Shown: positions 18,973 through 22,622 of the stretch, piece after piece
Layout: each line of letters begins with the position of its first letter
Position numbering within the stretch: the first letter of the stretch is position 1
Source: an uncultured Pseudomonadota bacterium
GTDB lineage: Bacteria > Pseudomonadota > Alphaproteobacteria > Rs-D84
Length of the DNA: 36,619 nt
Assembly (NCBI GenBank): GCA_949288265.1
Contig: CASEJM010000025.1
Coordinates: 1-36,619 of the forward strand
Reading direction: 5' to 3'
Position numbers and translations under genes: made by a program
The notes under the pieces: model-generated
The model's database searches: none
What the model was told of the DNA's origin: nothing
The model's input: only the letters and a program-made list of their open reading frames with translations

Positions 18973-19281
18973 TTATTTTTTCTTTGCAAGTGCTTTTTTA
19001 GCAACTGGCTTTTTTGCTGCAACTTTTTTTACAGCTGGCTTTTTAGCAACTGGTTTTTTTGCTGCAACTTTTTTTACAGCTGGCTTTTTAGCAACTGGCT
19101 TTTTAGCAGCAACTTTTTTTACAGCTGGCTTTTTAGCAGCAACTTTTTTTGCAGGTGCTTTTTTAGCAACTGGTTTTTTTGCAGCTGGTTTTTTTACAGC
19201 CGGCTTTTTCGCAGCTGGTTTTGCCGCTGGCTTTTTCGCAGCAGTTTTTTTCGCAGCTGGTTTCAAGAATGTGAATGCCAT
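18973..19281 (-). CDS. Histone H1-like lysine/alanine-rich DNA-binding protein
   Basis: The 102-residue protein is almost entirely AAKK, PAVKK and PVAKK repeats after a short MAFTFLKP leader, as in bacterial H1-like proteins (HctB/AlgP-type tails). Such tails bind and condense DNA without sequence preference. The last part consists of three near-identical 15-residue units. It has a strong GGAGAG ribosome-binding site, its own promoter (19337-19365) and two terminators, so it is an independent transcription unit. It is nonetheless placed between the scaffold and capsid genes; whether it is a host nucleoid protein or acts in DNA packaging cannot be told from sequence. Confidence 0.85.
19001..19135. 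repeat. three 45-bp tandem repeats in the H1-like gene
   Basis: The element beginning GCTGCAAC (or GCAGCAAC) recurs at 19016, 19061 and 19106, a 45-bp period that encodes [15 protein letters not shown] units. The number of units is likely to vary between strains through slippage. Confidence 0.85.
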
Positions 19282-19385: not shown

Positions 19386-20042
19386 TCACGAATATAATTT
19401 TTTAAAACCATTTTCTATTTTGCGAACGTATTCTGGATCTTGATCGCGCCAATATTTTGGATCGCGCATCATACGACGAAGGTCATTATCAGTTAAATTT
19501 TTTGATTGTAAATCATCTGTTTGAACTTTGGGTTCCATTGATTGCATCATTGCGTATATGCCACGGATTCCTTCGGGTGTAGAGCATAGTTCATTAAAAG
19601 CTTCACGAGGAAGATACTTTTCACCGAATGTATTTATAGCACGTAATGCTTCATGCATTTTATCATCATTCCCAAAGAAGTTTTTTAATTCGGCAATCGC
19701 ATTAGTTTCATTTTTTGTATTAAATAAATCAGATAATACGGGTGCTAAAAATTCTTCTGCAATTTGATAAATTTTTTCAACTTGCGAAGAAGTTAAACCA
19801 ATTTCAAAAAATTTTTCACGTAAAGTTTCATCGTCAAACATTGCATTAGTGGGGTATTCACTTGCTTTCTCTGGTACGCCGATTGCGCGGTTAAATTTTG
19901 CTCGTGTTTCCGCATCAGAGTTGTCGTCTGGTATAGAAATCATAGTTCCAATTTTCTTTTCTAATTCAGCATATGATTTTAATAAAGCGTCAGTATTTAA
20001 TTTTCCTTCTGTGTTAAGAAATTTTTCTGGAATTTTTTCCAT
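19386..20042 (-). CDS. Capsid assembly (scaffold) protein, podoviral
   Basis: The 218-residue acidic, helical protein matches phage scaffold proteins of the T7 gp9-like group. The N-terminal KFLNTEGKLNTDALLKSYAE-type segment, IGVPEKASEYP and the C-terminal LRRMMRDPKYWRDQDPEYVR are characteristic; the last region binds the capsid protein in related phages. Scaffolds guide procapsid assembly and leave before DNA packaging. The start codon lies inside the holin gene (29-nt overlap), so translation is coupled. Confidence 0.82.
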   Translation of the reverse strand: MEKIPEKFLNTEGKLNTDALLKSYAELEKKIGTMISIPDDNSDAETRAKFNRAIGVPEKASEYPTNAMFDDETLREKFFEIGLTSSQVEKIYQIAEEFLAPVLSDLFNTKNETNAIAELKNFFGNDDKMHEALRAINTFGEKYLPREAFNELCSTPEGIRGIYAMMQSMEPKVQTDDLQSKNLTDNDLRRMMRDPKYWRDQDPEYVRKIENGFKKLYS

Positions 20043-21981: not shown

Positions 21982-22227
21982 TTAATTGCGCTCTTTATTT
22001 TGCGAGTCAATAAACTTTGTAAAATCCTGGATGCTGGCGCCTGTTGACGACAGAATCTTGGAAATGCTGTTTGTTGACGGCCAACGAGGTTGACCTTCTT
22101 TGGACCAACGTTTGCTTTTATTAAAAGTCGTTGGATCCAAACCGCTACATTTTGCCAAACCTGAACATGACATTCCGTGTTCGGTCGCAAAGCGCTCTAT
22201 TGCCCGCCAGACATCTTCATGGGTCAT
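21982..22227 (-). CDS. Short XRE regulator (HTH part of an S24-type repressor)
   Basis: The 81 residues match the N-terminus of the alphaproteobacterial HTH/S24 regulators: MTHEDVWRAIERFATEHGMS, the recognition segment SGLDPTTFNKSKRWSKEGQP and RWPSTNSISKIL. Family members usually continue for another 120-150 residues with an S24 peptidase domain; here the protein stops at FIDSQNKERN, so the autoproteolytic domain is absent. The ATG has an extended ribosome-binding site, AGAGGAGAGAGAA. Two inverted repeats lie just upstream, and the neighbouring small RNA is perfectly complementary to 15 nt of this leader. Confidence 0.82.
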   Translation of the reverse strand: MTHEDVWRAIERFATEHGMSCSGLAKCSGLDPTTFNKSKRWSKEGQPRWPSTNSISKILSSTGASIQDFTKFIDSQNKERN

Positions 22228-22248
22228 TTCTCTCTCCTCTGGTTACTG

Positions 22249-22289
22249 TTCGGAACATCCGAATTTTTGGACATATGGGAACATATGTC
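22249..22289. promoter_or_regulatory. two inverted repeats upstream of the short XRE gene
   Basis: TTCGGA-ACA-TCCGAA (22249-22263) and GACATATG-GGAA-CATATGTC (22270-22289) are perfect palindromes spaced by six bases, 22-62 bp before the XRE start codon. They look like operators for an HTH dimer, most simply the XRE protein itself. Confidence 0.6.
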
Positions 22290-22397
22290 TGATATTGATT
22301 TTATTCCAGCCCTGGCTGGCGGGCAACAAGGACGATTTCCTAAAATTTTGCTTTATATCCTAAAAATAACACTAAAAAATAATTTTGACAATAATAC

Positions 22398-22426
22398 TTG
22401 ACAAATACAAAAAAATGTATTACATT
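22398..22426 (+). promoter_or_regulatory. promoter of the CU-rich small RNA
   Basis: TTGACA-N17-TACATT; a second TTGACA lies 13 bp upstream. Transcription should start near 22433. No open reading frame follows. Confidence 0.6.
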
Positions 22427-22432
22427 TCGATT

Positions 22433-22622
22433 CGTCAAAGGGGGAAACCCCGGCGACGGGGTGAAAACCTCTTTGGGGTCCAGGGATTCAGACTCCCTCC
22501 TACATTCTCTCTCCTCTGGACTCTGGACCCCATTTTATAGTTTAGAATGCCCATTTCTTTTTCTCCTTTCCTTCCTTTCAGGGCATTCGGAAACACCGGT
22601 GGGCGACCATCGGCGTTTTTTT
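22433..22622 (+). ncRNA. predicted structured CU-rich small RNA (about 190 nt)
   Basis: Between its promoter and a terminator (CCGGTGG-GCGA-CCATCGG then CGTTTTTTT) the sequence has no start codon with a ribosome-binding site, but folds well by eye. A first stem CAAAGGGG/CCTCTTTG encloses ACCCCG-GCGA-CGGGGT. A second, GGGGTCCAG/CTGGACCCC (22480-22530 region), holds a loop with TCCCTCCT and TCTCTCTCCTCTGG. A third, AATGCCC/GGGCATT, holds a pyrimidine-only loop with TCTCC and TTCCTTCC. Such CU-rich loops bind Shine-Dalgarno sequences, as in alphaproteobacterial anti-SD small RNAs. Positions 22505-22519 are identical to 22228-22242, the complement of the XRE gene's ribosome-binding site. Confidence 0.65.
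22594..22622 (+). terminator. terminator of the small RNA
   Basis: A 7-bp stem with a GCGA tetraloop and one G-U pair, followed after CG by U7. Confidence 0.75.

Follow-up and report, generated by a model that had tools for sequence, protein, structure and literature searches.

In CU-rich small RNAs (sRNAs) of alphaproteobacteria, such as those of the alpha-r14/NfeR1 and CcsR groups, anti-Shine-Dalgarno (anti-SD) motifs are located in hairpin loops. The sRNA of Candidatus Enterousia analysed here also shows anti-SD motifs in hairpin loops, but it has a long gene-specific match instead of the short CCUCC motif, has no match in Rfam, and occurs in hosts without Hfq. EcpR1 of Sinorhizobium meliloti and other Rhizobiales represses dnaA and gcrA with a conserved loop directed at the ribosome-binding site (RBS) and the start codon, and acts without Hfq (PMC4414408). 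Both EcpR1 and the Enterousia sRNA are alphaproteobacterial trans-sRNAs that are independent of Hfq and have a conserved loop pairing with the RBS region of dnaA, the pairing being predicted in the present case. EcpR1 has a GC-rich loop (UCCGCCGCAUCU), two hairpins, a 101-nt main form, and a second target, gcrA, whereas the Enterousia sRNA has CU-rich loops and three hairpins followed by a terminator, belongs to a different order, and showed no sequence similarity to EcpR1. The EcpR1 SL1 loop motif was found in none of 58 aligned sequences of the Enterousia sRNA. In Rhizobiales, ecpR1 is located downstream of divK-pleD; the present locus belongs to the order Rs-D84 and is flanked by genes for an XRE regulator, BPL, and a TrmA-like protein. 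Pairing with the dnaA RBS region was predicted, with dnaA as the first-ranked start region in two genomes. That EcpR1 represses its targets is proven, whereas for the Enterousia sRNA we infer repression. EcpR1 is best read as a functional analogue that is unrelated in sequence.

Two phage-encoded RNAs are also close to the present case. PreS, an sRNA of phage lambda, acts on host dnaN and needs Hfq, and AgvB, a prophage-encoded anti-sRNA to GcvB, imitates sRNA targets and blocks the host sRNA (both reviewed in PMC12197685). Like PreS, the putative phage RNAs found in this study would act on a host replication gene, and like AgvB, they would exploit a host sRNA circuit through sequence imitation. 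That review does not describe PreS as copied from a host sRNA, whereas the RNAs found here repeat host loops and point at dnaA. Unlike AgvB, they are imitations of the sRNA and not of its targets, and their effect would be to reinforce the sRNA or to compete with it for its ligand.

Structure and distribution of the small RNA

The window, that is, the whole stretch of 36,619 nt that was analysed, comes from a genome of 0.8 Mb. Enterousia is a member of the uncultured order Rs-D84, which has reduced genomes (PMC12306168). A preliminary description of the window had proposed an undescribed CU-rich noncoding RNA with a promoter, three hairpins, and a terminator, and this proposal was borne out by folding, motif scanning, and conservation. 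The features of the locus are as follows.

21982–22227, minus strand: divergent XRE/HTH_26 regulator of 81 aa, with 74–99% identity in relatives
22228–22242, minus strand: XRE RBS, a perfect complement of sRNA positions 22505–22519 in the closest clade only
22385–22390, plus strand: upstream TTGACA repeat (TTTTGACAA), 13 nt 5′ of the −35 element, conserved in the genus (31 intergenic regions aligned)
22398–22426, plus strand: sigma-70-type promoter, TTGACA-17-TACATT, found by scan and kept in the genus alignments
22433–22622, plus strand: small RNA of about 190 nt (fold with z = −4.95, covariation, census of genus and family)
22437–22474, plus strand: SL1, a variable hairpin (fold)
22475–22531, plus strand: SL2 hairpin (fold), with a varying stem and a constant loop
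22493–22514, plus strand: SL2 loop CUCCCUCCUACAUUCUCUCUCC, 22 nt, invariant, with an unpaired probability of 0.9997, recurring on unrelated phage stems
22545–22588, plus strand: SL3 hairpin, with compensatory change in seven of eight stem pairs and a constant eighth pair
22560–22577, plus strand: SL3 loop segment UUUCUCCUUUCCUUCCUU, predicted to pair with the dnaA Shine-Dalgarno sequence
22589–22622, plus strand: intrinsic terminator (fold and scan), a stem at 22596–22613 followed by T7

Transcription would start near 22433, and the upstream TTGACA repeat is a candidate operator or second −35 element. Three hairpins were predicted in the RNA of about 190 nt, with a folding energy of −77.1 kcal/mol (z = −4.95), and equal stability was reached by 0 of 200 shuffled sequences. 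SL1 had weak support and was shorter in several species. The loops of SL2 and SL3, which are 22 and 28 nt long, respectively, were both predicted to be open within the full-length RNA. Among the 58 aligned sequences, compensatory changes were found in 21 of the 36 consensus pairs, and the two large CU-rich loops were near-constant while the stems changed jointly; since the loops are invariant and the stems covary, the loops are what selection keeps.

The covariance-model comparison with Rfam that had been put forward with the preliminary description yielded no family: at the gathering threshold, the models of Rfam 15 matched only a tRNA in the window, and a search with a relaxed E-value gave nothing credible, its best weak match being on the wrong strand (19.3 bits versus 50). 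The sRNA is almost certainly real, conserved, and undescribed, and it is presumably transcribed. It has its own promoter and terminator and an open loop complementary to a conserved RBS in trans, as in the functional class of trans-acting anti-SD sRNAs, and may repress its target in vivo.

The sRNA gene is single-copy. It was found by DNA search in 33 of 35 genomes of the same genus, and the core of SL2 was present in 144 of 156 Candidatus Enterousia genomes (101 of the 103 good ones) with zero hits in the reversed control. A covariance model extended the range of the sRNA to 12 other genera of the family, among them termite-gut lineages, and gave only one weak match outside the family. In four genus genomes with 85–93% completeness (G023, G149, G112, and G184), the sRNA was not found, owing to loss or to an assembly gap; G023 retains the dnaA motif described below. 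Three termite-gut loci (L048, L049, and L065) contain an extra hairpin inserted in SL3, and a dnaA match was not apparent in them. Second copies in G111, G121, G171, and G187 were considered as prophage-borne mimics and rejected because they are ordinary host loci; they probably reflect mixed strains or split contigs. Among the extra copies, only the one on contig L057, described below, lies in a phage-like setting.

Two other genes in the window were noted. The minus-strand frame at 18973–19281 encodes a small protein with abundant AAKKPA repeats resembling histone-H1-type or AlgP-type tails, and that at 19386–20042, also on the minus strand, encodes a protein of 218 aa that Pfam matched to the capsid assembly protein of phage T7 (E = 7.7e-9), a match that may be compositional.

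Complementarity to the neighbouring XRE gene

The preliminary description had reported that positions 22505–22519 are identical to positions 22228–22242 (TTCTCTCTCCTCTGG) and antisense to the XRE RBS, and this was confirmed letter for letter. It had placed the 15-nt match in the loop; the identity stands, but the last five to six nucleotides (CUCUGG) are paired in the SL2 stem, and about ten of the 15 lie in the open loop. The perfect match was confined to the five closest species (L001–L005). Compensatory variation between the loop and the XRE leader, which the same description had named as a test, was not seen in relatives, because the leader changes elsewhere while the sRNA loop is constant. 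Conserved or covarying complementarity, which would be expected of a cis-antisense RNA regulating its neighbour, was not found in relatives.

According to one explanation, the sRNA acts locally and in the manner of an antisense RNA, with SL2 preventing translation of the divergent XRE gene; XRE might in turn control the sRNA promoter and so close a feedback loop. The 15-nt complement over the RBS in the five closest species is consistent with this, as are the adjacency of the two genes, which was found in 87 of the 108 loci with room and in all 31 first-set genus genomes with enough flank, and the duplex of −29.0 kcal/mol in G000 with the SL2 stem opened, the strongest match for the opened SL2 (XRE was missed by gene calling in this genome, and its ranks were computed separately). 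We consider the explanation improbable, since the complement is lost in other species with an invariant loop, XRE is missing beside the sRNA in most termite-gut loci as well as in L054, L073, and L080, which still have the other flanking genes, and the net cofold gain in G000 was −17.4 for XRE versus −26.7 for dnaA, the former not exceeding what the best shuffled leader reached (−19.3). XRE was rejected as a general target in view of the match in five species, the incomplete adjacency, and the weaker cofold. The proposal that the sRNA blocks XRE translation may hold as an effect specific to the closest clade, where XRE would be a local target, but it is weakly supported as a conserved function, and the parallel that had been drawn with phage immunity repressors was unsupported.

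Two blocks, GATTTTATTCCA and ACAACAAGNACNATTTCCTA, are conserved in the region between XRE and the sRNA (22240–22400), which in the closest clade also contains two palindromes (TTCGGAACATCCGAA; GGACATATG-GGAA-CATATGTC) that may be operators. An XRE paralogue is located outside the window, at G000:C26:12887-13132, and its own RBS (AAAGGGAGGACAAAATG) is also compatible with an anti-SD loop.

Predicted pairing of the SL3 loop with dnaA

The preliminary description had mentioned in passing that the other loops could bind further RBSs, and for the SL3 loop a match of this kind was predicted with the RBS of dnaA. This gene lies outside the window (G000:C43:13231) and would be a target in trans. Start regions were scored against each loop for 781 predicted genes in G000 (776–781 ranked) and 907 in G003. 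With the SL3 loop, dnaA had rank 1 of 776–781 in G000 and rank 1 of 907 in G003, with energies of −29.0 and −29.6 and next-best targets at −21.7 and −23.9, respectively, a lead of 6–7 kcal/mol in two divergent genomes. A shared top target as strong as this was obtained with 0 of 40 shuffled loops, and when dinucleotide-shuffled loops were scored with dnaA as their sole target, 5 of 5000 and 0 of 5000 reached the observed energies, none of them both. The predicted duplex has 18 consecutive pairs over the Shine-Dalgarno sequence (GGGGAAGGAAAGGAGAAA, a few nucleotides 5′ of the start codon) at −29.0 kcal/mol, compared to −9.7 for the 16S rRNA tail. On both strands of G000 and G003, the best non-self site of the SL3 loop was dnaA.

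In the genus, dnaA leaders reached −29 or better in 24 of 34 genomes, and 21 of the 34 had the exact 16-mer; the remaining 10 leaders were weaker (−17.7 to −25.2) with the loop unchanged. The leaders of outgroups in other families scored −9 to −23, most termite-gut genera had no dnaA match, and compensatory co-change between the SL3 loop and the dnaA leader was not seen across the 34 genus genomes and the termite genera. The dnaA leader shares an identical run of 18 nt between G000 and G003, which ranks 14 of 515 orthologues (median, 6). Of the 156 genomes, 75 contained the 16-mer exactly twice; in those genomes whose sites were inspected, they were the sRNA and dnaA, save for a few assemblies in which the sRNA was present in duplicate. 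Cofolding of the sRNA with the dnaA leader gave a gain of −16 to −31 kcal/mol, compared to a median of −5.5 for shuffled leaders, and about half of the target site was paired in the predicted leader folds. Ribosome binding by itself might account for the conservation of the purine-rich dnaA RBS. Hfq was found in 0 of 40 genomes of the genus and the order, although positive controls were detected, and the sRNA accordingly does not belong to the Hfq-dependent trans-sRNA class.

No target above shuffled loops was obtained with the SL2 loop in the start-region scan of G000 and G003, and no complement of at least 80% was present on either strand of these two genomes, one of which includes its own 16S gene. 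The idea that SL2 is antisense to one mRNA was rejected on these grounds. The invariance of the SL2 loop is left unexplained by the dnaA target, and 22 invariant nucleotides with no RNA partner suggest a protein, which is possibly the ligand, or short contacts with several RNAs. These results, together with the constancy of the loop family-wide and its presence in phages on unrelated stems, would suit an RNA that binds or titrates a protein, for example one of the cold-shock or S1 type recognizing pyrimidine loops, with the dnaA complementarity being secondary and the phage copies being decoys. We regard such an RNA as unlikely, as a protein site does not predict the one outstanding conserved mRNA partner of SL3, and no candidate protein was identified. 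Slightly less credible is a broad anti-SD RNA that has no main target and damps many mRNAs with strong purine-rich RBSs. Both loops hold anti-SD sequence, CUCCUUU is common to SL3 and the 16S tail (CACCUCCUUU), and pairing at −15 to −20 is common among start regions; on the other side, strong SL2 targets were no more numerous than with shuffled loops, the usual Shine-Dalgarno sequences in these genomes are AAAGGA rather than GGAGG, and dnaA stood 6–7 kcal/mol above all others.

The sequence comparisons point to dnaA, rather than XRE, as the best conserved target, and repression of dnaA is the best-supported function of the sRNA and a likely one. In the reading that we prefer and regard as probable, the sRNA is a trans-acting, Hfq-independent anti-SD RNA that represses dnaA translation, and phages copied its loops. 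The covarying stems would hold the two large CU-rich loops open, and the SL3 loop would pair over the dnaA Shine-Dalgarno sequence much more strongly than the 16S rRNA tail does, keeping ribosomes off and lowering replication initiation. The SL2 loop would have a second recognition function, most likely toward a protein ligand or through several short anti-SD contacts, and the phage copies would probably press the same switch on the host. If this is true, very small gut bacteria without Hfq still control replication initiation via a dedicated RNA, and the parallel with the unrelated RNA of Rhizobiales suggests that, among alphaproteobacteria, dnaA translation repeatedly comes under RNA control.

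Loop copies in viral contigs

The exact 22-nt SL2 loop was found in three viral contigs, L150 (231 kb), L151 (31 kb), and L154 (36 kb), whose gene contents are unrelated, and in a phage-like contig, L057 (G152/G204), which was binned with an Enterousia genome having its own sRNA. In each of the four contigs, the loop is flanked by a different, perfect stem. Being constant family-wide and moved between unrelated stems, it offers a handle for partner discovery. Interior matches of 18 nt (L209–L213) were rejected as chance because they form no hairpin, and the viral contigs L149, L152, and L153 were rejected as phage copies because they contain the host locus with XRE; these three are probably mis-binned.

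L154 contains two mini-genes in tandem; both have a TTGACA-17-TAT promoter and a hairpin-terminator, and one presents an SL3-like loop, the other the SL2 loop. L150 has a noncoding gap of 1.5 kb with three such loops: one of SL3, exact over 20 nt, and two of SL2, of which one is a variant and the other exact. Sigma-70-type promoters accompany the SL3 or SL3-like loops in both contigs. With the L150 SL3 loop, dnaA ranked first in G000 and G003, and with the degenerate L154 loop, it ranked 1 and 3 in the two genomes.

The full sRNA had no match among the INPHARED phages. No terminase was found in a search of L150, L151, and L154, so their phage nature rests on IMG/VR and phage-type genes: L154 encodes a tail protein and a Holliday resolvase, L151 has Gam-like and Erf-like genes, and L150 has an exonuclease and a weak tail match. 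The phage identity of the contigs is moderately supported, and their hosts would be Enterousia. Phage imitation of the host loops is well supported as sequence and less so as mechanism. It is plausible, though we advance it tentatively, that unrelated phages of gut alphaproteobacteria without Hfq independently re-mounted the loops of the host sRNA on stems and promoters of their own so as to stop DnaA production and make the host available for phage replication, with SL2 as a transferable module that has a dedicated partner. Phage copies of a host anti-dnaA RNA were not found described in our literature search, which does not prove their absence from the literature. If the loops are such copies, phages here directly imitate a regulatory RNA of their host, and the copies point to a testable target. 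The noncoding gap in L150 (3137–4660) contains several hairpins and strong promoters and appears to be a cluster of small RNA genes.
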